DNA of 64,000 bases from a virus. Below, piece by piece: positions 1-58,133 of the stretch. Position 1 is the stretch's first letter; every line of letters begins with the position of its first letter. The notes beneath the pieces are model-generated. The model was not told the DNA's origin and made no database searches. It worked only from the letters and a program-made list of their open reading frames with translations. Where the stretch lies: the IMG/VR virus record IMGVR_UViG_3300027759_000053, positions 80,479 to 144,478 of that record; one strand, 5' to 3'. The position numbers and the translations under genes were made by a program.

Positions 1-2002
1 CTAGTAGTAAATCGTTTAGTTCACCAATAAACTTGCCAACAATCTTACGCATACTTAGATCATCAAGTTTGGCAAACTTGACAATGCCATCTAAACGATT
101 ACGAAATTCAGGTTTAAAGAAGTCTTTAACTGCTTTGTCATCTTCGCCGGATTTCTGCAGTTCTTTGGTAAAACCAATTGTGTTACGTTCGTTATCCGCA
201 GCACCAAGATTACTGGTTAGAATAACAATAGCATTGCGACAGTCGGCTTTCTTACCGTTACTGCTGGTAATAGTTCCTTCATCCATCATTTGCAGTAAGA
301 TGTTGCTTACATCAGGATGAGCTTTTTCAATTTCGTCCATTAGTATAATACAGTTTGGATTCTTTTCAATATCACTGATCAGTAACCCACCACCCAAGTT
401 GCCATCTTCGTAGCCCACATAGCCTGGAGGAGCACCAATTAGTTTAGCAACAGTATGACGTTCTTGATATTCACTCATATCGTAACGTAACAGTTTCATG
501 CCAAGATTTTCTGCCAGTAACTTTGCTAGTTCTGTTTTACCAGTACCAGTTGGACCCAAGAACAAGAAGTTACCAATTGGCTTACTCAATGATTTCAATC
601 CTGCACGGCTAACATAGATTTTTTCTAGCACAGTATCTACAGCAGCATCTTGTCCGTACAGTCGATCTTTGACATTTGCTTCTAGACCTTCAATTCCTTT
701 TGCGCCTTCAGTATTACCAATCTGTTCTACAGGAATTCTAGTAAGTCTACTGATAGTGTTAATGATAACAGCACGATCCACAATCCATGCTGTACCTTTA
801 ATTTTTAACTTGGCACAAGAAGCATCAATAAGATCAATTGCCTTATCTGGGAGTTTTTTATCTGTTTGATAACGCACACTGAGCTCAACTGCTGCATCAA
901 TAGCATCGTCGGTAATAGTACCGTCATGAAACTTTTCAAAATTTAGACGTAATCCGTATAAAATTTCTTTGGCTATTACTGGACTTGGTTCGTCGATAGT
1001 AATACGTTGAAAGCGTCGCATTAATGCACGATCCTTTTCAAAACTCTGCGTATATTCTTCCCATGTAGTACTAGCAATAACTTTAATTTTACCTTTGCTT
1101 AGTGCAGGTTTAATTATATTACTAAAGTCTACACTATTTTGACTTCCTGCACCTGCACCGCGCATTTGATGTGCTTCGTCAATGAACAGTATTGACTTGC
1201 CTTTAACATTAAGTGCTGCAAGTATTTCGTGTATCTTTTCTTCAAAGTCGCCGCGGTACTTACTACCTGCCAACAAGCTGCTGATATCAAGATTGTATAC
1301 TGTATAGTCTAGTAGATATTCTGGCACTGTTTTGAGAACAATAGCTAGAGCTAATCCTTCGGCAATTGCTGTTTTACCAACACCTGGATCGCCAATCATT
1401 AGTACATTTGATTTGTTACGACGTGCTAAAGTTTCAACAATTTCGTTAGTTTCGTTTTCTCTTCCGATAACCGGATCTATATTACCCTCTTCGGCTTTTT
1501 TGTTTAAGTTGTCACAGTAGTGTTCAAGAATCTTATCTGCTTGACTTGCACTTGCTACAGCTTTACCTGCTTCAGATTTATAACTTTTATTGTACATTTC
1601 AACAAGCTTTGCACGATCAAGATTGTACTTGACCATAAAGTAATGTGCATAGCTACTAGTTTCTGCATGGATACTTAGAAATAAATCCATCATTTGTACA
1701 TGGGTTCTGGAACTAAAAAGTACCTGGGTGAATGCACGATTAAAAACACGCTCTAAGGCATGTGTTTTTTTAGGATCAGAATCGTTTACTACCAACAAGT
1801 CTTGTGCACCAAGATAAGCATCAAGGTCTGCATCTAGACCCTCAACATCGGCACCGTAACTGACAATGAAATCTTTAAATGGATCATATCTAACCATACT
1901 TAAAAAGACATGCTCCAGTGTTACATACTCGTGACTGAAAGATTTTGCTAAAAGCGTAGCTTCGGACACAACATGATCAATTTCGGGATTGGTTTGTAAC
2001 AT
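1..2002 (-). CDS. clpA: ClpA-type AAA+ unfoldase, C-terminus cut by window edge
   Basis: ATP-dependent unfoldase that feeds substrates to ClpP. About 667 codons are visible; host ClpA is ~758 aa, so roughly 90 C-terminal residues lie beyond the left edge. Seen: an N-domain (residues ~1-140) with the family 'VTLEHVFLSM' segment; first AAA module with Walker A GDPGVGKT at ~204-211 and 'ILFIDEAHQM'; second module with Walker A GPTGTGKT at ~483-490, 'GAPPGYVGYE' and 'IILMDEIEKAH'. The start is fixed by alignment of the N-domain to E. coli ClpA. It has no Shine-Dalgarno sequence, but a perfect late box sits 5 bases upstream. It follows dnaJ by 16 bases, suggesting a chaperone pair. Whether it uses host ClpP cannot be seen here. 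Confidence 0.93.
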   Translation of the reverse strand, partial: MLQTNPEIDHVVSEATLLAKSFSHEYVTLEHVFLSMVRYDPFKDFIVSYGADVEGLDADLDAYLGAQDLLVVNDSDPKKTHALERVFNRAFTQVLFSSRTHVQMMDLFLSIHAETSSYAHYFMVKYNLDRAKLVEMYNKSYKSEAGKAVASASQADKILEHYCDNLNKKAEEGNIDPVIGRENETNEIVETLARRNKSNVLMIGDPGVGKTAIAEGLALAIVLKTVPEYLLDYTVYNLDISSLLAGSKYRGDFEEKIHEILAALNVKGKSILFIDEAHQMRGAGAGSQNSVDFSNIIKPALSKGKIKVIASTTWEEYTQSFEKDRALMRRFQRITIDEPSPVIAKEILYGLRLNFEKFHDGTITDDAIDAAVELSVRYQTDKKLPDKAIDLIDASCAKLKIKGTAWIVDRAVIINTISRLTRIPVEQIGNTEGAKGIEGLEANVKDRLYGQDAAVDTVLEKIYVSRAGLKSLSKPIGNFLFLGPTGTGKTELAKLLAENLGMKLLRYDMSEYQERHTVAKLIGAPPGYVGYEDGNLGGGLLISDIEKNPNCIILMDEIEKAHPDVSNILLQMMDEGTITSSNGKKADCRNAIVILTSNLGAADNERNTIGFTKELQKSGEDDKAVKDFFKPEFRNRLDGIVKFAKLDDLSMRKIVGKFIGELNDLLL

Positions 2003-10441: not shown

Positions 10442-10569
10442 TCCAATATATTTAAATTTCTATAGTCATTAAATGAACAATTCTAATCCTTAAATATTTG
10501 CGTGGACTTATTGACAAGCCCACTAACTGGCAAATGTCAACAGAACCACCACATACAAAGGAGGCAGTC

Positions 10570-11292
10570 TTGAGCAAACGCCGTAGAAGCGAAGTAACAC
10601 AATTATCTGTAGTAAGCAACATTGAACCATATCAAAAACAAAGAAAAACAATTGCACTAACGCCAAAAAGTCGTAACCAAGAAACATACATAGATTTACT
10701 AGAAGATCCCCAACGCTTAATAGTTTTCGCTACTGGCCCGGCAGGCACAGGTAAAACTATGCTGGCTGTGTTGGCCGCACTAAAAGCATTTAGAGCAGGA
10801 GAGTGCTCTCGAATTGTTATTACTAGGCCTGCAGTGGGCGTTGATGACGAGCAACATGGATTTTTGCCGGGTACATTGAATCAAAAGATGGAGCCATGGA
10901 CACGCCCTATCTTTGATATAATAGAGGAGTATTACAAACCACAGGAAGTAGCTCGTTTGCTAGACGAAAAATATATAGAGATTGCTCCACTAGCATACAT
11001 GCGGGGGCGGACATTTAAAAACTCGTGGATCGTTGCTGACGAAATGCAGAACGCCACGCCTTCTCAGATGAAAATGCTGCTCACTAGACTAGGAGAAAAT
11101 TCCAAGATGGTTGTAACAGGCGACACACAGCAGGCCGACCGTAAGGCCAAGGACAACGGATTGCTAGACTTTCAGCGGCTCATGGCCGACTTTGAAGACA
11201 GCCAATACATTGCTGGTGTGGAATTTGCCGTCAAGGATGTTCGTAGACATCCGGCTGTGGCAGAAGTTCTTAAATTGTACGGGGAGGATTAA
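10570..11292 (+). CDS. phoH: PhoH-family ATPase
   Basis: 240 aa. Walker A 'GPAGTGKT' (~56-63), 'RIVITRPAVGVDDEQHGFLP', Walker B 'WIVADEMQNATPSQMK' and 'VVTGDTQQ' are all diagnostic of PhoH. The start is taken as TTG at 10570 because AGGAGG lies 5 bases upstream; in-frame TTG (10498) and ATG (10534) lack one. PhoH is common in marine and freshwater phages and is often linked to phosphate stress or RNA metabolism. No Pho box is seen upstream here. Confidence 0.93.
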   Translation: MSKRRRSEVTQLSVVSNIEPYQKQRKTIALTPKSRNQETYIDLLEDPQRLIVFATGPAGTGKTMLAVLAALKAFRAGECSRIVITRPAVGVDDEQHGFLPGTLNQKMEPWTRPIFDIIEEYYKPQEVARLLDEKYIEIAPLAYMRGRTFKNSWIVADEMQNATPSQMKMLLTRLGENSKMVVTGDTQQADRKAKDNGLLDFQRLMADFEDSQYIAGVEFAVKDVRRHPAVAEVLKLYGED

Positions 11293-11309: not shown

Positions 11310-12311
11310 ATGCTAAGTTATTCTGAGATCCGCCGTGTTCATTTAGAAATATCAACTAGGTGCAATGCGGCGTGTCCTGAATGTCCAAGAAATTTTCGTG
11401 GTGTAGATATCGTAGACACCTATCCTGTTTGTGATATGAGCTTAGAGCAAGCTCAAAAAATCTTTACTGTTCCTTTTTTACAACAACTTGATCAAATATT
11501 AATTAACGGCAACTATGGTGATTTCATCACGGCCCGGGATGGTTTGTCAATTATTGAATACTTTGTTGCTGTAAATCCACAATTAAAAATTAGTATTAGT
11601 ACCAATGCTAGTGGGCGCCCACATATATGGCGTAGATTGGGTGAGCTTGGAGTAGAAGTTCAGTTTAGAATTGATGGATTGGCAGATACTCATCATCTAT
11701 ACAGACAATATACAAACTTTGAATTAATATTGGAGAATGCATTAAAGTTTATACAAGCAGGAGGCCGTGCTGTATGGGCAATGATTAAATTTGATCATAA
11801 CAAGCATCAGATATCTCAAGCCGAAATATTATCTAAAGCAATGGGATTTAAGAGATTTGAACTAGTTGATGCAGGTAGAGATAAAACTGTAGTCTTTACT
11901 AGAGATAAACAACTTAGTCACGTAATAGGCAATTACCAAGGGCCCACCGACTATGAAACATTATACAATCAGTATCAGCACTCTATTAGTGATCCGGGCA
12001 GTATTCTAAAAAAGATCAAAGTACAAGAAAGAGAAATAGACTGTTATTCGAATAAAAATCGTGAAATTTATATAGCAGCAAATGGTGAAGTTTATCCTTG
12101 TTGTTGGCTAGGGTTCTACCCATTGAGTAAAAAAGGAAACCCTAGTATGTATCAATTACGTCCGTTAGTCAAAGAAAACAATAGTTTTGATTACGGAATA
12201 GAACACGCAATTGCATGGTTCAATCAAATTGAAAGTACTTGGAGTAAGACTGTTCTAGAAGGAAAAATTTATAATTGCAACGAAACTTGCGGGAAGAGAA
12301 CATTAAGTTGA
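11310..12311 (+). CDS. Radical SAM protein with SPASM-like C-terminus
   Basis: 333 aa. The CxxxCxxC cluster is at Cys18, Cys22 and Cys25 ('STRCNAACPECPRNF'). The C-terminal region has 'DCYSNKNREIYIAANGEVYP', 'CCW' and 'CNETCGK', consistent with an auxiliary Fe-S (SPASM-type) domain. Such enzymes often modify peptides or proteins. The substrate is not evident. The start has no Shine-Dalgarno, but a TGTAAATA box ends 4 bases before ATG. It converges with and overlaps the nucleotidase gene by 43 bases. Confidence 0.8.
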   Translation: MLSYSEIRRVHLEISTRCNAACPECPRNFRGVDIVDTYPVCDMSLEQAQKIFTVPFLQQLDQILINGNYGDFITARDGLSIIEYFVAVNPQLKISISTNASGRPHIWRRLGELGVEVQFRIDGLADTHHLYRQYTNFELILENALKFIQAGGRAVWAMIKFDHNKHQISQAEILSKAMGFKRFELVDAGRDKTVVFTRDKQLSHVIGNYQGPTDYETLYNQYQHSISDPGSILKKIKVQEREIDCYSNKNREIYIAANGEVYPCCWLGFYPLSKKGNPSMYQLRPLVKENNSFDYGIEHAIAWFNQIESTWSKTVLEGKIYNCNETCGKRTLS

Positions 12312-47293: not shown

Positions 47294-48307
47294 CTATTGT
47301 TGCACCCGATTTAAATCTACTAGATTGTTACGAAATATAACCCAACATAATTCCCACGTCCAACGCTCACTGTCTGCTACAACTCTGGCTCTAGGAATAT
47401 GTAAGCATAAGTCCACGGCGTCTCTTAATCGTTCGCTCATGTATCCCGAAACACCTTGACGAATAATATCTTGCGGTCCAGGTACTAGGTATGCTGCTAC
47501 TGGAGTACCTAGACTCATTGCTTCAATCATTACTATACCAAATGTATCAACTCTACTAGGAAAAGCCAGTACATCTGCTCTTGCATACCAGTCTGCTAAT
47601 TCTTTTCCAGTTTTATATCCCACAAATTGACACCCTGGATGTTCTTGCTCTAGCCTTTTTCTGTCAGGTCCGTCACCAACAACAACCACGTCATATGTAT
47701 CAATTAGTCGACATACTACATCAATGTCTTTTTCTTGACTAACACGGCCCACGTATAATATCAAGGGCCTTGGATTAGGATGAGGCCATGCTTGTGTGGG
47801 CTGCAATTCTTCTCTATTGACTCCGCGAGTCCATGGAATGATTCCACCTTCGAATCCATGTCTGCGTAATTCATTGACCATGGTATTAGTGTTAGTTAAC
47901 ACTATGCCTGAGTGTTTATGGAACCAACGTAGGTAACCCCAGGTAATACATTCTGGAACATTGTATATCTTTTTTAGAAATTCAGGGAACTTAGTATGGT
48001 AACTAGTATTATACCTATAGCCCCGGAGGTCAAGATAAAGTCTAGCACACAAACCAAGAGGACCTTCTGTGGCGATGTGTATATAATCCGGAGATATCTC
48101 CTTAATCTTTTTACCCAGACCCCACGGCCAGGCAAATTTAACTTCAGGGTAGCCTGGGCAATCAAAATGTACGAACTCCCGGGGAGTAAGGTATACAATA
48201 CTATAACCGTCCAGAACAGCCATGGTCTCAAGGTTCTTAAAAGTTGTAACCACGCCATTAATCTGATCCGGTGTGTTATCTGTTATTACTAATATTTTTT
48301 TACGCAT
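47294..48307 (-). CDS. GT4-family glycosyltransferase, Agt-like (glycolipid synthesis)
   Basis: 337 aa GT-B enzyme. 'TDNTPDQINGVVTTFKNLET', acceptor-side 'YNTSYHTKFPEF', and donor-side 'LILYVGRVSQEKDIDVV', 'VVVGDGPDRKRLE', 'SRVDTFGIVMIEAMSLGTPV' (EX7E-type). It directly follows a PlcP-like phosphoesterase behind a Pho-type promoter. In phosphate-starved bacteria the agt-plcP pair replaces phospholipids with glycosyl-diacylglycerols. LPS or capsule sugar transfer is the alternative. Confidence 0.8.
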   Translation of the reverse strand: MRKKILVITDNTPDQINGVVTTFKNLETMAVLDGYSIVYLTPREFVHFDCPGYPEVKFAWPWGLGKKIKEISPDYIHIATEGPLGLCARLYLDLRGYRYNTSYHTKFPEFLKKIYNVPECITWGYLRWFHKHSGIVLTNTNTMVNELRRHGFEGGIIPWTRGVNREELQPTQAWPHPNPRPLILYVGRVSQEKDIDVVCRLIDTYDVVVVGDGPDRKRLEQEHPGCQFVGYKTGKELADWYARADVLAFPSRVDTFGIVMIEAMSLGTPVAAYLVPGPQDIIRQGVSGYMSERLRDAVDLCLHIPRARVVADSERWTWELCWVIFRNNLVDLNRVQQ

Positions 48308-48367
48308 TTTACATCAATCTTGAATGATTCAAATTTTACCCAATACGTCATCGACTTTGCACTTTGT

Positions 48368-49213
48368 TCACACGTCTGTTGATCCGGGAACTCCAAGGTC
48401 ATTTTTGCTGGAACGTCCCGTGGATCGTTTATGTGTACTGCCATCAATATCATCAACCACATCATCCTTCTCCTGCGTCCAAGTTATGATTTCCCAACGA
48501 CCGTTATGATGTTCTACTAATGCTGTCATTGACTCAACCCAGTCACCGTCGTTCATGTATACTACACCATCTATTTCTTTGATTTCTGCGTGATGTATGT
48601 GTCCGCATATGACACCATCAAATCCACGCTTTTTACAGTATGCGGCTAGATTTCTTTCAAACTGGAATATAAAGTCTAAAGCTCGTTTAACCCGTTGTTT
48701 AAGATAAAGGCTAAGACTCCAATAACCAAAGCCAAGTCTATGACGGAGCCAATTGAATCTAGAATTGAGAGTAAGTATGAAATCATATGCTTTGTCTCCT
48801 AATATACTAAGCCAAGGTGCCAGTCTAGTAATACCATCAAACAGGTCACCGTGTGTGACTAGATAATGTTTACCGTCGGCACCTATATGCTCGTATTGGT
48901 TATGTAACTCTACCATTCCAAAATTTAAATTGTATTGCAGGAACGGTCTTAAAAACTCATCGTGATTACCTAGTACATATATAATACGAGTATCTCTTTT
49001 GGCATGACCCAGTATGCGGCGTATAACATTTGTATGACTTTGTTTCCAACGCCACTTGTTCTGTTTTATTTTCCATGCATCTATAATATCACCAACAAGA
49101 TATAACGTGTTACAGGTATTATTTTTTAAAAAATTGTTTAGCTCAACAGCCTTACAGTCTTTAGTACCAAGGTGTATATCACTGATAAAAATACTACGAT
49201 AGGTCTTGCTCAT
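48368..49213 (-). CDS. plcP: PlcP-like phosphoesterase (phospholipase C type)
   Basis: 281 aa, start at ATG 49213 (an in-frame ATG at 49234 lies in the promoter). Metal site: 'FISDIHLGTKD' (Asp12, His14), 'YLVGDIIDAW' (Asp42), 'VLGNHDEFLRP', 'LVTHGDLFDG', 'VICGHIHHAEI'. The family is usually labelled UDP-2,3-diacylglucosamine hydrolase (LpxH-like), but the longer form next to a glycosyltransferase and under a Pho box is characteristic of PlcP, which releases diacylglycerol from phospholipid. LpxH function cannot be excluded from sequence. Confidence 0.72.
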   Translation of the reverse strand: MSKTYRSIFISDIHLGTKDCKAVELNNFLKNNTCNTLYLVGDIIDAWKIKQNKWRWKQSHTNVIRRILGHAKRDTRIIYVLGNHDEFLRPFLQYNLNFGMVELHNQYEHIGADGKHYLVTHGDLFDGITRLAPWLSILGDKAYDFILTLNSRFNWLRHRLGFGYWSLSLYLKQRVKRALDFIFQFERNLAAYCKKRGFDGVICGHIHHAEIKEIDGVVYMNDGDWVESMTALVEHHNGRWEIITWTQEKDDVVDDIDGSTHKRSTGRSSKNDLGVPGSTDV

Positions 49214-49218
49214 ATAAT

Positions 49219-49253
49219 TATTTAAGGTTTGCAAGATTACAAATCCATTACAA
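49219..49253 (-). promoter_or_regulatory. Pho-box promoter for plcP-agt, leaderless
   Basis: Minus strand: TTGTAAT, GGAT, TTGTAAT (49236-49253, exact 11-base period), then 11 bases, then TAAATA (49219-49224), then 5 bases and ATG. It has the same architecture as the pstS promoter. Confidence 0.75.
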
Positions 49254-49262
49254 AGTCGTAAA

Positions 49263-49284
49263 AAAAGGCACCTAAGTGCCTTTT
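49263..49284 (-). terminator. Rho-independent terminator after porin gene
   Basis: AAAAGGCAC-TTAG-GTGCCTTTT with a T-run on the minus strand; separates pstS-porin from plcP-agt. Confidence 0.85.
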
Positions 49285-49303
49285 ATTTGTTCTAATTTTG
49301 AAA

Positions 49304-50719
49304 TTAGAAACTGATCTGACCTCTGAGCATAACTGCCTGTTCACCATCTACACGGGCACCAGATGTACCAACTGGTTTGTTGAATTTGGTGTCAACATAG
49401 TTTGCCATTATGCGTACATTGTCATTCAGAAACCAAGTAATACCGTAAGTCAATGACGTTGCTAGATTTGCTTTACCAGTTGCAACTGTAATATCTTCGG
49501 CATTAAACTCACTGGCTCTTACGCCAACTTGCCATGCGCCTCTGCCACCACTTGTGAAAGCAGAGTTAGGTTTGATCCAACCAAATACGCCATCTTTGTA
49601 GTTGTGACTCTCACCTGTGATGTTATAAATTGCTTGAACATAGTGACCCTTGATCTCTTTGTCTGTTCCTGTAGCAGGATCGTAGTTAAAGACGAATTGC
49701 TCACCCTGTACTTTCAAACCCTTCCAGGCAAATGCTGCTTCAATGCCCTGGCGTGTTCGTGCAGTATCACCACTCATTGCAGATGAACCTGTGAACCATG
49801 CACTTTGTTGACGTCCTTCAGTACGACCACTAGCGGGAGCAACACCTGTTTTGACATTGCCTGTGCTGTATGCTGCACCTAAGTGTGCTACAAAGTCTTT
49901 GTTCTGAATTACTTCTGCAACGTTTGTAGTCACACGACCAATAACATCTACACCATCAACTGTAGTACTCTTGTTAGCACGACCACGACTTAGTGCCAAC
50001 GCATAGGTGAATCCTGTTCTAGGAATACCATGCAGCATCACACCAGTTTCTTTGGCAGGAATAAATTCGCCTTCGGTCTGACCAATCAGGCTACGTTCCA
50101 TAAAGTCAATGTTGTTGGAACTGGTCAACTGTTCAAGACTGAAAGGCATCTTGAATGTACCAACTTGTAGTTGTGCTTCTGTGATAGCGGCATAGTTAAA
50201 CCAAAACTCATCAATTGTTGATGTAGTTGAACTTGCGCCAGCATCGTTACCAAAGTTTGCTAGTAGCAGATATTTGAAGTCTTTGGCAATCTGTCCACGT
50301 ACACCAAAACGTCCACGACGAACTTCTAGTGTGTCTTGATATGGATCAGTGCTTTGACCAGAACTAAATGTTTGAGTATAACTTCTATAGTCCATATGAA
50401 TACGACCAGTAAACTGTGCTGTGGTATTGCCATCTTTTGATTTGATCCCAAGACCATTTTCCATTACAGCGCCATCATTCACTTTGCTCAAACGATAGTT
50501 GTTGTTGTCTTTAACATCTTTGTCAATTCTAGATGATTGGAATTCTTTGTTTTCCAAGCGATCTTTATGTGCTTCAATTTTGGCAGCGTGTTCTTGCTTG
50601 GTGAGAATTCCTTTTTGTAAAAGAATATCTAACGTGTCAGTGTACTCATCTGCTTGTGCTGCGCCAGCAAACATCATAGCTATTGCCAGAGCCGCTGTTA
50701 GTATTTTAAATTGTTTCAT
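49304..50719 (-). CDS. Phosphate-selective porin (OprO/OprP-like)
   Basis: 471 aa. Signal peptide ~1-23 (ends AQA), a short helical/coiled segment (~25-60), then a β-barrel with alternating pattern: 'NTTAQFTGRIHMDYRSYTQ', 'LEVRRGRFGVRGQIAKDFKY', 'AQLQVGTFKMPFSLEQLTSS', 'MERSLIGQTEGEFIPAKETG'. Ends in Phe ('LRGQISF'), the BAM assembly signal. Family: Porin_O_P, anion- and phosphate-selective outer-membrane channels induced by phosphate limitation. Downstream of pstS behind the same Pho-type promoter. Confidence 0.85.
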   Translation of the reverse strand: MKQFKILTAALAIAMMFAGAAQADEYTDTLDILLQKGILTKQEHAAKIEAHKDRLENKEFQSSRIDKDVKDNNNYRLSKVNDGAVMENGLGIKSKDGNTTAQFTGRIHMDYRSYTQTFSSGQSTDPYQDTLEVRRGRFGVRGQIAKDFKYLLLANFGNDAGASSTTSTIDEFWFNYAAITEAQLQVGTFKMPFSLEQLTSSNNIDFMERSLIGQTEGEFIPAKETGVMLHGIPRTGFTYALALSRGRANKSTTVDGVDVIGRVTTNVAEVIQNKDFVAHLGAAYSTGNVKTGVAPASGRTEGRQQSAWFTGSSAMSGDTARTRQGIEAAFAWKGLKVQGEQFVFNYDPATGTDKEIKGHYVQAIYNITGESHNYKDGVFGWIKPNSAFTSGGRGAWQVGVRASEFNAEDITVATGKANLATSLTYGITWFLNDNVRIMANYVDTKFNKPVGTSGARVDGEQAVMLRGQISF

Positions 50720-50740
50720 TACATTTTCCTTTATGTTGAT

Positions 50741-50770
50741 ACTCTAACACTATATTAAAAGTGTTAGAGT
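50741..50770 (-). promoter_or_regulatory. Intercistronic hairpin between pstS and porin
   Basis: Perfect 10-bp stem (ACTCTAACAC/GTGTTAGAGT), 10-base loop, no U-run: more likely an mRNA-stabilising or attenuating hairpin than a full terminator. Confidence 0.65.
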
Positions 50771-50782
50771 ATGTCAAATGAT

Positions 50783-51808
50783 TTATTTCCAAATTGATTG
50801 ACCGTCTGGTCCTTTGAGTTCTTTTTTCCAGTTATCTTGAACTAACTTGATAACTGACTGAGGCATGTGTACATATTCCAAATCTTCACTCATCTTGGCG
50901 CCGTTTTTATACGACCAATCAAAGAATTTTAGAATAGCACGACCAGTTAAAGCATCTGCTTGTTGCTTGTGCATTATGATAAAACTGGCACCAGTTGCTG
51001 GCCATGAATCTTTGCCAGTTTGGTTTGTCAGTAACAAATACATTCCTGGAGCATTGTTCCAATCAGCACCTGCTGCGGCTGCTTTAAATGTATCATCACT
51101 TGGTTGTACAAAGTTACCATCACGATTTTTCAATTGTGCATACGCAATTTTGTTTTTCTTGGCGTAGGCATATTCCACGTAACCAAAAGCGCCTTTGACA
51201 CGTTGAACGTTGGCCGCAACACCTTCGTTACCTTTGCCGCCTACACCAGTTGGCCATTTCACAGCAGAGCCTTCGCCTACAGTATTCTTAAAGTCGGCGT
51301 TTACTTTGCTCAGATAGTTTGTCCAAATGAATGTTGTGCCTGAGCCATCTGCACGATGCACAACAGTGATATTGATTGCTGGTAGTGTGACACCAGGATT
51401 CAATTCAGCAATTGCTCGATCATTCCATTTGGTAATTTTACCTAGATGAATATTAGCGATTACATCACTGGTCAGTTTCAATTCACCAGGTTGTACACCA
51501 TCAAGGTTGAATACCGGAACAACACCACCAATGATTGCGGGGAATTGCATTAAGCCTTCTTTGTCTAATTCCTCTACTTTCAATGGCATATCACTGGCAC
51601 CAAAGTCCACTGTCTTGGCTTTGATTTGACGAATACCACCACCTGAACCGATGGATTGATAATTGAGTCCTATACCTGTTGCTGCTTTATATGCTTCTGC
51701 CCATTTGGCATAAATTGGGTAGGGAAAAGTTGCACCAGCGCCTGTTAAATCAGCTGCTGATACTACTGTAGAAAATACTAGTGCTGCTAATGTCACAAAC
51801 TTCTTCAT
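50783..51808 (-). CDS. pstS: Periplasmic phosphate-binding protein PstS
   Basis: 341 aa. Signal peptide ~1-18 (ends VSA). Phosphate-site segments 'LTGAGATFPYPIYAKWAEAY', 'NYQSIGSGGGIRQI', 'VDFGASDMPLK', 'VVHRADGSGTTFIWTNYLSK' are all intact. Captures phosphate for the host PstCAB transporter. Known as an auxiliary gene of marine cyanophages under host PhoB control; here it leads a phosphate island with a porin downstream. AAAGGAG before the start. Confidence 0.96.
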   Translation of the reverse strand: MKKFVTLAALVFSTVVSAADLTGAGATFPYPIYAKWAEAYKAATGIGLNYQSIGSGGGIRQIKAKTVDFGASDMPLKVEELDKEGLMQFPAIIGGVVPVFNLDGVQPGELKLTSDVIANIHLGKITKWNDRAIAELNPGVTLPAINITVVHRADGSGTTFIWTNYLSKVNADFKNTVGEGSAVKWPTGVGGKGNEGVAANVQRVKGAFGYVEYAYAKKNKIAYAQLKNRDGNFVQPSDDTFKAAAAGADWNNAPGMYLLLTNQTGKDSWPATGASFIIMHKQQADALTGRAILKFFDWSYKNGAKMSEDLEYVHMPQSVIKLVQDNWKKELKGPDGQSIWK

Positions 51809-53924: not shown

Positions 53925-54075
53925 CTTCTTCTTTCTTAATGTAATCGTATCGTGCTAACCTGTGCAATCGGTCCGCACAGTCTCTAATGTCATCGCTTAG
54001 TTGCCCGCGACCAATTTCTTGTTCCAATGTTCTTGCTACATTATGCAATTGTACGACTGCCTCGTCTAGTGTCAT
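53911..54075 (-). CDS. Small helical protein (54 aa)
   Basis: 'MTLDEAVVQLHNVARTLEQE' onward; ATG overlaps the end of the preceding gene and the stop overlaps the next start. Amphipathic helices. Function unknown. Confidence 0.55.
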   Translation of the reverse strand: MTLDEAVVQLHNVARTLEQEIGRGQLSDDIRDCADRLHRLARYDYIKKEEDGIQ

Positions 54076-54305
54076 TGTGTAAGTTCCTTTATAACTAGTT
54101 CTCGACTGCGTTGCTCATCTTCTGCATCACGACATTTCTTCATTTCATGTGCAACTATATCTAGAAACTCATTGAGATTTCGCTTACCTTCGTCGGTAAA
54201 ATGACTATACCCTGGGCCTATAGAACTCTGATAATAATATCTACTGTTCTGTAACAATTCTTCAATACCGCCATACAATAATTCTTTTAATGCCTTGCGT
54301 TCCAT
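54072..54305 (-). CDS. Small helical hypothetical protein
   Basis: 77 aa, charged ('MKKCRDAEDEQRSRELVIKE'). 4-base overlap with the next gene. Function unknown. Confidence 0.55.
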   Translation of the reverse strand: MERKALKELLYGGIEELLQNSRYYYQSSIGPGYSHFTDEGKRNLNEFLDIVAHEMKKCRDAEDEQRSRELVIKELTQ

Positions 54306-54323
54306 AATTGATCCTTTGTAATA

Positions 54324-54731
54324 TCATAAGTCTTTTAACTCCGTCACATGTCGACAAGATTTACGAAATTGGAAACCTGGGCAAGTGCAAGTCCAAATAT
54401 TCTTAGATCGTACCACAGTATATTTGGATCCCTTGCTACCTTCTACCACCCAGGTCTTTGGGGCATCTTTTGCAAGTACCTTCTCACCAACTCCTCCGTC
54501 TGCGTATTTAATTTCAGTTATACGGTCTAGTGGAATTTCTCGAATACGCACAGGGCTATCAAAATCTGTCACGATTCTAACAAAGTTAGGTGGGGTGAAT
54601 CGAGTTGCTGAATCAACAATGCCTGTTACAGTTGTAGCAACAGGTCCTTCGTGCCCCAGCACATAGCTATTGAGCTCAAAAGTAATAGCAACTTTACAAC
54701 CAGGATTGGGAGATTGAAATTGAGTTTTCAT
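54324..54731 (-). CDS. SWIM-type zinc-finger protein
   Basis: 135 aa. The C-terminal 'KNIWTCTCPGFQFRKSCRHV' gives CxC...CxH, the SWIM zinc finger, usually DNA- or protein-binding. The N-terminal ~90 residues are β-rich and unassigned. First gene behind an early promoter. Confidence 0.78.
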   Translation of the reverse strand: MKTQFQSPNPGCKVAITFELNSYVLGHEGPVATTVTGIVDSATRFTPPNFVRIVTDFDSPVRIREIPLDRITEIKYADGGVGEKVLAKDAPKTWVVEGSKGSKYTVVRSKNIWTCTCPGFQFRKSCRHVTELKDL

Positions 54732-54737
54732 GCTCTT

Positions 54738-54766
54738 ATTATAGCAAAAAGCTCAATTTAGAGCAA
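54738..54766 (-). promoter_or_regulatory. Early sigma70-type promoter (degenerate -35)
   Basis: TTGCTC, 17 bases, TATAAT on the minus strand. Confidence 0.65.
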
Positions 54767-54773
54767 GAGATGT

Positions 54774-55010
54774 TTAACTTTCGTGTATTATGATATCAAC
54801 AATTGATTGATCTCTTAGAGACAGGACTGCTTCTTTTCCTTCGACAATATTACCAATTGGCATACCGCAATGTTCCGGGCCAGGTTCAATTCCGTAGGAT
54901 TTTAACCATTTGGTTATTTGAGGATCCTTGGCTACAGCACGATCAGTCAATGATAAACTGCCACTGTACACCACGTGAGTGTCAATATCCCATTCTCTTG
55001 GATCATCCAT
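54774..55010 (-). CDS. Hypothetical protein
   Basis: 78 aa. 'MDDPREWDIDTHVVYSGSLS', 'GIEPGPEHCGMPIGNIVEGK'. Starts one base after the upstream stop. Function unknown. Confidence 0.55.
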   Translation of the reverse strand: MDDPREWDIDTHVVYSGSLSLTDRAVAKDPQITKWLKSYGIEPGPEHCGMPIGNIVEGKEAVLSLRDQSIVDIIIHES

Positions 55011-55011
55011 T

Positions 55012-55716
55012 TCAAAAATAACATCTGTGATAGTTTTTTCCTTGCACTTGATCCAAAGTTAACCAAACATCGTATTCGAGTGCGTCAGAAAAATATTGTT
55101 TATGTTCTTGTTTGAGTTCTTGAAAATAACCGCCATTTGGATCGTAACCAGTGACTACTGGAATCATGTCATTACGCTTTGGGCTTGATCTGTCAAATAT
55201 TACTTGATACTCAAAATATAACGATTTAAATGTTTGTATATGTTCAGTCATAACATAAACTTCTATTTCGTGTACAGCATGATTTATATCATGTATTAAT
55301 TTTTTCCATTCATCTGATTTAGATTCCGGAACAACAAAATTCAGGTCTGATCCATACTTCCAAGTATTTCCACTATTATGACTTGTTGTAAAATGTCTGT
55401 GTAATCGATTAAGCAAATCCCTGGTATACGCATTATTGGCAATAATGATTTCATTTTCTGTAACTGGAAAAGAAACTCCTAATGCGTTGAGATCGCGAAT
55501 TGTTTTTTTAAAAACTTCTGTCAGCTGGTCTATTGTTTTTTGGTTCCAAGGTACTACAGATTTGGGTCGTATTATTTCTTTAAAGGAATTTATGGGATAT
55601 AATTCATGATTTCGTTTTAATTGGACAACAAAATCATGAATAAAATTATTTGATAGTAACTCTATAACAATATTAGAATTATTTGATCTAGTGACTAGTT
55701 CTAATCCAATAGCCAT
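55012..55716 (-). CDS. Hypothetical protein
   Basis: 234 aa, mixed alpha/beta, no Cys cluster or known catalytic motif ('HNSGNTWKYGSDLNFVVPES', 'VTGYDPNGGYFQELKQEHKQ'). No Shine-Dalgarno seen. Function unknown. Confidence 0.5.
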   Translation of the reverse strand: MAIGLELVTRSNNSNIVIELLSNNFIHDFVVQLKRNHELYPINSFKEIIRPKSVVPWNQKTIDQLTEVFKKTIRDLNALGVSFPVTENEIIIANNAYTRDLLNRLHRHFTTSHNSGNTWKYGSDLNFVVPESKSDEWKKLIHDINHAVHEIEVYVMTEHIQTFKSLYFEYQVIFDRSSPKRNDMIPVVTGYDPNGGYFQELKQEHKQYFSDALEYDVWLTLDQVQGKNYHRCYF

Positions 55717-55724
55717 AATGACTA

Positions 55725-56081
55725 TCAGACATCTCGAACATAGGTAAACATGGAACCGCTATAGGTAACATTTGGGTCGGCTGCAAAAATTGCTTCCCAT
55801 TTTAATCGGGCTGCATCTGTTTCGGGAATATCAGTAGGGGCACCAGGTAGAACAAATGCTTCACAATTGTCGCCATTGGGCAACACTTCAAAATCAACAT
55901 TTTGATATCTATTGGATTCAATTAATCCCGCTATATAGGAATAATGACTGTTTATTTCCTGTTCGAATTCTTCTAATTGTGCCGTGGATAATGTCATTTG
56001 GGCCCATTCCCAGAAATCGACCCGAATTGATTGCTCATTGTATTGCAGAACAGATTTAGGTAGTATAAACAATTGTGCCAT
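55725..56081 (-). CDS. Conserved phage hypothetical protein
   Basis: 118 aa. 'VDFWEWAQMTLSTAQLEEFE' and 'DAARLKWEAIFAADPNVTYS'. Late box and GGAG upstream; a virion role is possible. Confidence 0.6.
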   Translation of the reverse strand: MAQLFILPKSVLQYNEQSIRVDFWEWAQMTLSTAQLEEFEQEINSHYSYIAGLIESNRYQNVDFEVLPNGDNCEAFVLPGAPTDIPETDAARLKWEAIFAADPNVTYSGSMFTYVRDV

Positions 56082-56101
56082 GGTGTTTTCTCCGTTTTAG
56101 C

Positions 56102-56109
56102 TATTTATC
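56102..56109 (-). promoter_or_regulatory. Late promoter box GATAAATA
   Basis: The predicted +1 at ~56096 leaves a 15-base leader with GGAG before the ATG at 56081. Confidence 0.6.
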
Positions 56110-56130
56110 TATTAGACATCTAAAACAAAA

Positions 56131-56150
56131 ATAGGACCCGAAGGTCCTAT
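56131..56150 (-). terminator. Terminator of tmRNA, UUCG loop
   Basis: ATAGGACC-TTCG-GGTCCTAT followed by TTTTTG on the minus strand. Confidence 0.9.
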
Positions 56151-56154
56151 TCTA

Positions 56155-56440
56155 GCTATTGGTTAACAAGGCGCTACCCCCGGCTTTGGCTCAAGCGGCC
56201 ATTGCGTAGTAACTATCGTTTGCAGTTACGAGTTTTGCTTCTTTTACGGAGATCGCCTACCGTGTTGCCTTCTCTACTATCTCACGCTGTCGAAACCAAT
56301 TCATCCCCATCAGAAACACACTACCACACGTTGTATATTACTAAAGGTAGCGATCCTTTAGTAGTGTAGCGGGTAACTCCATAATGTGCTTCTGGTGGAG
56401 ATGGGGGTATCGAAACCCCGTCCAACATGCCTTTGCTTTA
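56155..56440 (-). ncRNA. ssrA: Permuted (two-piece) tmRNA precursor
   Basis: Read on the minus strand, the acceptor piece comes first: T-arm GGGGT..TTCGAT..ACCCC and CATCTCC-A-CCA ending at 56393. An 84-base intervening segment with a hairpin (ACTAAAGG/CCTTTAGT) follows. The coding piece then starts at 56308 with GGGGATG, which pairs with CATCTCC as a 7-bp acceptor stem, and has the diagnostic 'TTGGTTTCGACAG' D-loop region. The tag frame (56191-56223) reads GCA resume codon then ANDSYYAMAA stop. Ends at a UUCG terminator. Rescues stalled ribosomes by trans-translation with the proteolysis tag; the AA end fits ClpXP/ClpAP targeting. Confidence 0.93.
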
Positions 56441-56458
56441 AAGGAATTACAACAATTC

Positions 56459-56626
56459 TTATTTTACTTCTCTACGCTCACATTTAACGTCAAGTACATC
56501 TGCTCTACGATACGATATAACATGAGCTGCTTCTAAACATTCTTCAAGACGATTGTAGCTGCGCCAATCACGCCATACTCCATCAGCATATATAAAAACT
56601 ACCAATGTCCAAACATACACTGACAC
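56459..56626 (-). CDS. Small membrane or secreted protein (55 aa)
   Basis: GTG start at 56626 chosen: it overlaps the upstream stop (TAGTG) and AGGA lies 6 bases before it. N-terminal hydrophobic segment 'SVYVWTLVVFIYADGVW', then a charged tail. Function unknown. Confidence 0.5.
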   Translation of the reverse strand: MSVYVWTLVVFIYADGVWRDWRSYNRLEECLEAAHVISYRRADVLDVKCERREVK

Positions 56627-56754
56627 TATTCTTCCTGCTGCGGTGGTCGATAAAACCATTCATGCCACACGATAAACCCTATCATACACAGACATCCTGT
56701 GATGATAGTGCCTAGCAAGAATCCAATTACAAAGTACAACTGTTCACTACCCAT
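56626..56754 (-). CDS. Small single-pass membrane protein (42 aa)
   Basis: Starts 'MGSEQLYFVIGFLLGTIITG'; one transmembrane helix, Pro/Gln-rich tail. Coupled to the next gene by a one-base stop/start overlap. Function unknown. Confidence 0.5.
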   Translation of the reverse strand: MGSEQLYFVIGFLLGTIITGCLCMIGFIVWHEWFYRPPQQEE

Positions 56755-56771
56755 TACAGTATCCTATAAAA

Positions 56772-56797
56772 GAAAAGCGGACCGTAGCCCGCTTTTC
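56772..56797 (-). terminator. Rho-independent terminator
   Basis: GAAAAGCGG/CCGCTTTTC stem followed by TTTTA on the minus strand, ending the gene at 56815. Confidence 0.85.
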
Positions 56798-56814
56798 CCG
56801 GTGCTTAGTATTTA

Positions 56815-57138
56815 TTAAGCGACCTGCTTCTTGCTAGCACGGGCTTTGATAGCATCCATGCTAGGCGCCGAAGCTTTGACCTTGACAGTACCTGCATCGT
56901 TGTACTTGGTATCTGCTGCGTCAATTGCTTCCTTGTACTCGGCTTTGAGATACAGCTCGGAAGTTTTAAGGAACGCGACCAGCTCAGGCTTGGTCATTGC
57001 TGTTGGAAGTTCGACTAGGTTGATATCCGTATCAGTTTTGGCCAGGATCTTGACACGAGTCATGTCGCTAGCAAAACGAACTTTGTAACCACCTTTAGAT
57101 TTAGAAACACCACCAACATTAAAAGTTTTGTCAGACAT
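56815..57138 (-). CDS. Conserved phage protein, Lys-rich
   Basis: 107 aa. 'KTFNVGGVSKSKGGYKVRFA' and a Lys/Ala-rich C-terminus. Single-gene unit with its own promoter and terminator, so probably highly expressed early. A nucleic-acid-binding role is possible. Confidence 0.65.
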   Translation of the reverse strand: MSDKTFNVGGVSKSKGGYKVRFASDMTRVKILAKTDTDINLVELPTAMTKPELVAFLKTSELYLKAEYKEAIDAADTKYNDAGTVKVKASAPSMDAIKARASKKQVA

Positions 57139-57199
57139 TAGAAATACTCCATAAAGTTAATTGATAAAAACACCAGTTGCTTCACTGCAACGTCCTACT

Positions 57200-57228
57200 A
57201 TATTACTGCCTTTCGAACTTTGAGTCAA
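57200..57228 (-). promoter_or_regulatory. Early sigma70-type promoter
   Basis: TTGACT, 17 bases, TAATAT on the minus strand. Confidence 0.65.
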
Positions 57229-57256
57229 CCTCTTTTTGGCGGCAGTATTACCAAAA

Positions 57257-57388
57257 TCACTGATTCTTTTCGATAGTGGTTGTAACCACGGTATGCGTAG
57301 TATCCACAGCCTGCCCAAAGAGATTCTTTGTCACAGCCGGATACAGTACAGCCAAAGTAACCACTACACCCAAAATAAACTTGCTCAT
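57257..57388 (-). CDS. Small membrane protein (43 aa)
   Basis: 'MSKFILGVVVTLAVLYPAVT' then a soluble Thr-rich tail. ATGA overlap with the preceding gene supports translation. A longer overlapping frame (to 57467) was rejected. Confidence 0.6.
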   Translation of the reverse strand: MSKFILGVVVTLAVLYPAVTKNLFGQAVDTTHTVVTTTIEKNQ

Positions 57389-57585
57389 TTTTTAGATCCT
57401 TTCGGAAATTTAGTACACCAAATACAACGAGTAGAACTCGTACCATAAAAATACAATCCGGTATCATAATACTGCCTATTGCACCCGGCGCATACGTATA
57501 TCATCATGTCTGGACCAGTGTCTGGACCGTCAGCAGCCATTTGCTGTTTAGGTCCAAGTTCGCCGGCGACAGGCTGGGCAGTCAT
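57385..57585 (-). CDS. Small zinc-ribbon protein
   Basis: 66 aa. 'MIYVCAGCNRQYYDTGLYFY' and 'STRCIWCTKFPKG' give CxxC...CxxC. TAATG overlap with the gene before. Likely metal-binding; target unknown. Confidence 0.65.
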   Translation of the reverse strand: MTAQPVAGELGPKQQMAADGPDTGPDMMIYVCAGCNRQYYDTGLYFYGTSSTRCIWCTKFPKGSKK

Positions 57586-57749
57586 TAGTTATAGCCCAAC
57601 TCGTAGTTGGCCGGATTGATATGATCTGCTTCAATGACAGCATCCTGATAATTGCTTGCATTTAAATTAACAGTATCACCATCTGCGAATTGAGCATAAT
57701 AGTTGTTTGTGCCCGGATCGTATTCTACCTGAACAAGAAAGTTACCCAT
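57585..57749 (-). CDS. Small hypothetical protein (54 aa)
   Basis: 'MGNFLVQVEYDPGTNNYYAQ' onward, acidic, β-rich. Overlaps its neighbours. Function unknown. Confidence 0.55.
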   Translation of the reverse strand: MGNFLVQVEYDPGTNNYYAQFADGDTVNLNASNYQDAVIEADHINPANYELGYN

Positions 57750-57924
57750 TTAAAAGTTCTCCTCCGAAAAATACTTCGTTGTCAAAAAATGCTGCGCCTA
57801 GTTTTGTTTCAAGCACATCAGCACGAGTAGCATAATGTACTACTAACTCCTGTGCCAACTTCTGTAAACTGTCATTTGACAGAAAGGCAATGTCGTTTGC
57901 TAGTTTCTCAATATGTGTCATCAT
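57742..57924 (-). CDS. Small helical protein (60 aa)
   Basis: 'MMTHIEKLANDIAFLSNDSL' onward. Belongs to the run of tiny overlapping early genes. Function unknown. Confidence 0.55.
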   Translation of the reverse strand: MMTHIEKLANDIAFLSNDSLQKLAQELVVHYATRADVLETKLGAAFFDNEVFFGGELLNG

Positions 57925-58133
57925 TAATCCAATGCATCAATGTTGATGTCAGTAATGTCTTTTGGCTTAGGTTTGGCTTTGGAATTGCCCCAGGCACTGT
58001 TGCCTGCTTCTGGAGAACTCTTGCCTGTAGGAATTGACTGAATAACTCCACCTTTGGCCAAAAACTCTATAATGGCTGGATCTGTTTCTACTGCTACTTC
58101 AACGACGTCTACCGCTTTCTTTTTAATTCGCAT
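57924..58133 (-). CDS. Small hypothetical protein
   Basis: 69 aa from ATG 58133 (GGAG upstream; the longer frame to 58202 lacks one). 'ETDPAIIEFLAKGGVIQSIP', Lys/Pro-rich tail. Function unknown. Confidence 0.55.
   Translation of the reverse strand: MRIKKKAVDVVEVAVETDPAIIEFLAKGGVIQSIPTGKSSPEAGNSAWGNSKAKPKPKDITDINIDALD

Follow-up and report, generated by a model that had tools for sequence, protein, structure and literature searches.

A permuted two-piece tmRNA gene of a phage with a mosaic sequence pattern and a covarying helix in its intervening segment

A complete permuted two-piece tmRNA gene of the betaproteobacterial type, recognized far beyond chance, was found on the minus strand of phage DNA at approximately positions 56458-56128 of the analyzed window, a stretch of 64,000 nucleotides that corresponds to bases 80479-144478 of a 144,478-base IMG/VR virus record. 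The gene displays a mosaic sequence pattern, its body and its tag cassette matching different tmRNA lineages, and its unusual tag ANDSYYAMAA looks like part of a cassette swapped in from the tmRNA of another phage, not like a new targeting system. We regard it as very probable that the gene encodes a functional phage two-piece tmRNA which performs ordinary trans-translation with host factors and which received its tag by cassette exchange. The gene architecture, the acceptor-stem and intervening-segment helices, both with covariation, the mosaic sequence pattern and the lack of SmpB and ClpP in the record are the demonstrated part of this explanation; processing, charging, the use of host factors and the benefit to the phage are what the sequence suggests. 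Tag-cassette exchange and the covarying helix of the intervening segment are the points that a specialist would find interesting.

Identity and architecture of the tmRNA gene

In the Rfam scan, two covariance models scored above their gathering thresholds: RF01850 (beta_tmRNA) at 56507-56127 (minus strand, 156.7 bits, E=2.4e-48, gathering score 84) and RF04321 (tmRNA_permuted) at 56454-56191 (minus strand, 141.7 bits, E=8.1e-28, gathering score 47). ARAGORN, in the run made for this analysis, did not detect a tmRNA at the locus. The fold of the precursor had a z-score of -4.96. In the direction of transcription the acceptor half, ending in CATCTCC-ACCA, is followed by 84 nt, by the coding half starting with GGGGATG...TGGTTTCGAC, and then by the PK1 region, the tag, the 3′ part and the terminator.

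All features lie on the minus strand. The acceptor piece (56393-56454), comprising the T arm, the 3′ strand of the acceptor stem and the encoded CCA, was delimited by the RF04321 and RF01850 alignments and by an nhmmer acceptor profile (56460-56393). The 3′ strand of the acceptor stem (CATCTCC, 56397-56403) forms 7 of 7 pairs with GGGGATG at 56308-56302, including the alanine identity pair G3-U70, and the CCA is encoded at 56393-56395. The gap between the CCA and G1 (56308) is the intervening segment of 84 nt (56309-56392), which is predicted to be excised from the precursor. The coding piece extends from G1 via PK1 to the stop codon of the tag (56191-56308), as far as the RF04321 match reaches, and holds the tag frame GCAAACGATAGTTACTACGCAATGGCCGCTTGA (56223-56191), which runs from the resume codon GCA to the stop codon TGA and encodes ANDSYYAMAA. 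The post-tag 3′ part (56128-56190) was assigned from the RF01850 alignment and ends in an intrinsic terminator at 56153-56128, detected by a terminator scan, with an 11-bp stem, a TTCG loop and a T run.

A preliminary description of this DNA had proposed a permuted two-piece tmRNA in a phage context, with a split 7-bp acceptor stem, the tag ANDSYYAMAA and an intervening segment at 56309-56392. All of this is borne out, the segment coinciding exactly with the CCA-to-G1 gap. The locus was also placed correctly, but its extent (56155-56440) has to be revised, with an acceptor start about 15 nt further out, near 56458-56454, and a 3′ part and terminator reaching 56128; the strand, previously unstated, is the minus strand.

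Covariation of the acceptor stem and of a helix in the intervening segment

Permuted tmRNAs were gathered from viral contigs by partial pattern scans, and both halves were placed with profile HMMs. This yielded 183 distinct copies; the viral status of the contigs is the call of IMG/VR, and some bacterial DNA may be present among the short ones. Full pairing of the acceptor stem was observed in 181 of the 183 copies. Its pairs 5 and 6, on which the search patterns placed no constraint, occur as A-U, G-C, C-G and U-A, i.e. with compensatory change. G3-U70 (182/183) was mostly imposed by the search patterns, and the encoded CCA (183/183) was demanded by them.

A second helix was identified within the intervening segment. 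Its 5′ strand (56381-56394, minus strand) starts with the CA of the CCA and pairs with 56324-56311, the 3′ strand (56311-56324, minus strand), which ends 2 nt before G1; in the window it comprises 14 consecutive pairs, G-U pairs counted. The test set consisted of the 160 phage copies whose intervening segments measure 44 nt or more; in these the CA of the CCA and the first segment bases pair with the 3′ end of the segment, two bases being left before G1. Runs of 10 bp or longer were present in 84% of the 160 copies as against 12.6% when the partners were swapped between copies. On a tree built without the helix columns, at least 44-79 changes of pair type were counted per helix pair, and most pairs are formed in 93-98% of the copies (pair 3 in 79%). 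The helix is also found in most of the bacterial permuted tmRNAs examined. The consensus structures of RF01850 and RF04321 have no pairs at this position, and no description of the helix was met in the literature consulted, a selection outside which the primary papers on two-piece tmRNA lie; we claim no priority. The precursor is likely to form a continuous hairpin beyond the acceptor stem, with both cleavage sites in or beside a small internal loop.

Mosaic origin of the gene

The acceptor piece and the 5′ coding part are 97-98% identical to three phage tmRNAs, L041, L218 and L161; with L161 and L218 the window also shares its intervening segment, at 99% identity. These three copies share only that half with the window: their tags read AND[SNA][YF]YGEDRLAA, and the tag cassettes are only 61-63% alike. 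For the cassette of the window, i.e. tag, 3′ part and terminator, the nearest relative is instead another phage copy, L263 (91%), which has the same tag ANDSYYAMAA and the same terminator and shares only this half, its body being 72% identical. In the triplet alignment of the window, L161 and L263, the affinity of the informative sites changes a single time, shortly ahead of the tag (permutation p <= 5e-5), which places the inferred recombination breakpoint at 56232-56255 (minus strand). The unusual tag would thus be explained by exchange of tag, 3′ part and terminator as one cassette with another phage tmRNA lineage.

Among 153 phage copies screened, 100 were testable, i.e. had close neighbors for both halves, and 20 of these 100 had discordant neighbors for the two halves; this count is an estimate, since the discordance thresholds were set by the authors and the choice of parents favors discordance. 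In one of them, L083, the body is 100% identical to L106 and the cassette 97% identical to L099, the body of which reaches 78%. The exact tag junction of the window had no independent contig match in a search that omitted very near records, and an assembly chimera inside this one gene is therefore possible, although other contigs have a mosaic of the same kind.

The degradation tag of phage permuted tmRNAs appears to evolve by cassette exchange. As a tentative and somewhat doubtful extension, aquatic phages may draw on a large common stock of permuted tmRNAs that recombine freely, tag, 3′ pseudoknot region and terminator moving together as an exchangeable cassette between conserved tRNA-like bodies. 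Exchange would take place through the conserved stretch around PK1 and would let phages adapt the tag to host proteolysis separately from the rescue machinery. Processing of the precursor would be controlled by the covarying helix that the intervening segment forms with C75-A76.

The tag and the phage ClpA

With the alanine borne by the tRNA part, the tag reads AANDSYYAMAA, as compared with AANDENYALAA in E. coli. A1, A2, N3, D4, Y7, A8, A10 and A11 are unchanged and the terminal residues differ only by L9 to M; by sequence, the AAND...Y adaptor motif and the C-terminal hydrophobic-Ala-Ala of a standard ssrA degron are both present. AANDENY is the SspB-binding and ALAA the ClpX-binding part of the ssrA tag (PMC8512704), and in an account of the ssrA tag contacts the leucine position has a modest effect (PMC7652416). 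The endings counted among the phage copies were ALAA (96), RLAA (23), AMAA (11), LMAA (6) and AIAA (5). Gallionellaceae genomes encode the tmRNA tag ANDENFAMAA, so that the AMAA ending is also bacterial and was rejected as a phage-specific feature. The GEDRLAA tag pattern had no match in 399 Burkholderiales genomes, and a host tag match for it was rejected. In Herbaspirillum, L245 and L257 have the possible tags ANDSQFLAYGT and ANEPQFVAYGT, without an Ala-Ala end and in putative frames.

The phage also encodes a ClpA of 760 aa (window 1-2002, whole gene G000:80198-82480, minus strand), as the preliminary description had rightly noted. It matches TIGR02639 with 809.8 bits, below the curated cut-off of 993, and has IGF at the position of the ClpP-docking loop, where E. 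coli ClpA has IGL. The DNA polymerase (phrog_262) and ClpA place the phage near the T4-like jumbo phages, the nearest isolate being Sinorhizobium phage Phosso (469 kb; DNA polymerase 50%, ClpA 44%). Given this kinship, the 144-kb record is probably a fragment, and its source would probably be a large, aquatic-type, T4-like phage related to jumbo phages.

The co-occurrence of tag and unfoldase had led to the suggestion that the tag redirects proteins via ClpA, and in its full form this reading holds that ANDSYYAMAA steers chains to phage ClpA with host ClpP and so diverts host proteolysis. The IGF docking loop is in keeping with it, as is the lack of any AND-x-[FY]-x-AMAA tag with a TAA or TGA stop in the genomes of 84,980 species, although that pattern, by additionally requiring an aromatic residue at tag position 5, says little about AMAA in general. 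Against it, the recognition positions (AND, Y7, hydrophobic-Ala-Ala) are unchanged, AMAA also occurs in Gallionellaceae, and the tag arrived together with an entire 3′ cassette. Moreover, among 50 further phage records with a tmRNA no more than 3 gave a ClpA-like match, which in two cases was short and partial, and at least three jumbo phages (PA5oct, Atu_ph07 and Vibrio phage 2.275) have ClpA and lack a permuted tmRNA. A coupling of tag and ClpA was rejected, as the presence of ClpA does not follow that of the tmRNA. We consider a specialized tag very unlikely; redirection is not supported by anything other than the co-occurrence of the two genes, and ANDSYYAMAA is best read, from its residues, as an ordinary degron.

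A similarly improbable alternative is that the RNA acts as a decoy, binding to SmpB of the host or to stalled ribosomes and thereby blocking trans-translation in the host. Expression in E. coli of the phage DS6A tmRNA, which has no tag coding sequence, leads to inhibition of the endogenous tmRNA (PMC11915505). In the window, however, tag frame, stop codon, CCA and G3-U70 are all intact, and most of the 183 phage copies retain AND...[LMI]AA, which a decoy would not need.

Relatives and distribution

The nearest relatives of the gene are phage copies, led by L041 with 96% identity over 141 columns, in a clade of 6 with an SH-aLRT of 99. Among the bacterial copies found, the best identity was about 73%. 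Of the 399 Burkholderiales genomes sampled, only 17 yielded a permuted tmRNA in a search whose strict filter may have overlooked others; permuted tmRNA is thus rare in the sampled Burkholderiales and common in viral contigs. The least probable reading, a functionless ssrA fragment or pseudogene gained from a host by island or prophage exchange, has in its favor that host ssrA is a common integration site and that prophages hold ssrA fragments (PMC9004378, PMC11915505), but the gene is complete, with covarying helices and a terminator, and its 96-98% identical relatives are phage copies. The nesting of bacterial permuted tmRNAs within the phage diversity, as seen in a quick tree, was dropped, a single bacterial clade not being rejected by the AU test (p=0.59).

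A phage copy had been held to be unusual, a view that is not supported: the literature describes a permuted tmRNA in phage Melnitz and counts 53 permuted forms, mostly from aquatic phages, among 133 unique tmRNA structures of isolate phages (PMC9004378). The window copy, like the 183 copies from viral contigs, belongs to an already known kind and adds one example to it. The two-piece tmRNA of Melnitz and of Pelagibacter phage Mosig resembles it in being permuted, in a phage and in an aquatic context, whereas the Melnitz copy is described as alphaproteobacteria-like and is linked to a glutamine riboswitch (PMC9004378); the window copy belongs to the beta type, and no riboswitch was found in the window in the Rfam scan at gathering thresholds. 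Phage Phosso (PV764938) also carries a permuted tmRNA, which is of the alpha type (RF01849), with an intervening segment of about 0.4 kb and the tag ANDNVSTKVALAA, and hence belongs to a different tmRNA lineage. This Phosso gene is unannotated (L238:2554-3243; PV764938, 349596-350198). For AP-J-162, a related Sinorhizobium jumbo phage, one tmRNA is listed (PMC11242549).

The betaproteobacterial permuted tmRNA (RF01850) shares with the window the gene order, the structure, the 85-nt offset of the tag from G1 and the intervening-segment helix. Such tmRNAs were reportedly described by Sharkady and Williams in 2004. Among 30 distinct bacterial copies, 8 encode ACCC or ACCT, in contrast to the full CCA of the window. 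The intervening segment measures 84 nt in the window, with a median of 71 in phages versus 30 in bacteria, both ranges being biased by the search patterns.

In two Gallionellaceae genomes (L239 and L246; G050:C56 and G056:C7) a second copy of the acceptor half lies about 400 nt upstream of a complete permuted tmRNA, and G050 has an additional weak acceptor-half copy; these extra halves could have been left behind by the integration of islands or by a tandem duplication. Stenotrophomonas (L244, L248, L256) and Herbaspirillum (L245) show a strong permuted tmRNA together with a weak second match, which may be a standard tmRNA, and the permuted copy could reside on a phage or island.

Transcription, processing and proposed function

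The stop codon of a 66-aa ORF (56459-56659, minus strand), for which no family match was obtained, adjoins the 5′ end of the tmRNA, at 66 nt from stop to CCA end. The L160 tmRNA is preceded at equal distance by an open frame with a similar C-terminus, and several further copies have small open frames whose ends lie 65-71 nt ahead of the CCA end. No convincing promoter of the gene's own was found, sigma-70-like sites in 54000-58000 being at chance level, and co-transcription with the 66-aa ORF is therefore likeliest; the two are probably in the same operon. A T4 late promoter (TATAAATA) was rejected, as it is absent at the gene.

Neither SmpB nor ClpP was found in the 144-kb record, and SmpB was likewise missing in all 50 further phage records with a tmRNA, among them that of Phosso. 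Phage-encoded SmpB or ClpP was rejected on these grounds, and host factors appear to be needed, even though SmpB could lie elsewhere in the phage if the record is a fragment. Most likely the phage RNA works with host SmpB, AlaRS and Clp proteases.

For the favored reading, ordinary trans-translation, the following course is proposed. The precursor would probably be co-transcribed with the upstream small ORF and ended by the terminator at 56128, and its intervening segment would fold into a helix that continues the acceptor stem. Cleavage ahead of G1 (56308) by host RNase P and, after or close to the CCA, by a 3′ nuclease would release the 84-nt segment, and the two pieces would stay joined by the acceptor stem and an inter-piece helix. 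Charging by host AlaRS would rely on G3-U70, and host SmpB and EF-Tu would deliver the tmRNA to ribosomes stalled on broken messages, which are to be expected during the degradation of phage and host mRNA. Stalled chains would gain A-ANDSYYAMAA, a conventional degron for host ClpXP or ClpAP, and might perhaps also be degraded by phage ClpA with host ClpP. The main benefit would be the recycling of ribosomes in infection. The gene provides a way to test why phages carry RNAs for ribosome rescue, be it ribosome recycling or control of protein fate, and how the precursors of two-piece tmRNAs are processed.

Other features of the record

The window contains 8 tRNAs. PstS, a phosphate-selective porin, a metallophosphatase-like protein and a glycosyltransferase are encoded next to one another at 47294-51808 and, with PhoH at 10498-11292, make up a phosphate-acquisition set. 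Several large proteins with weak radical-SAM matches lie in a row at G000:C1 10050-22303 (L226, L227), and another weak match to a radical-SAM family occurs at 11310-12311 of the window. Near the tmRNA, a 135-aa SWIM zinc-finger protein is encoded at 54324-54731 on the minus strand.
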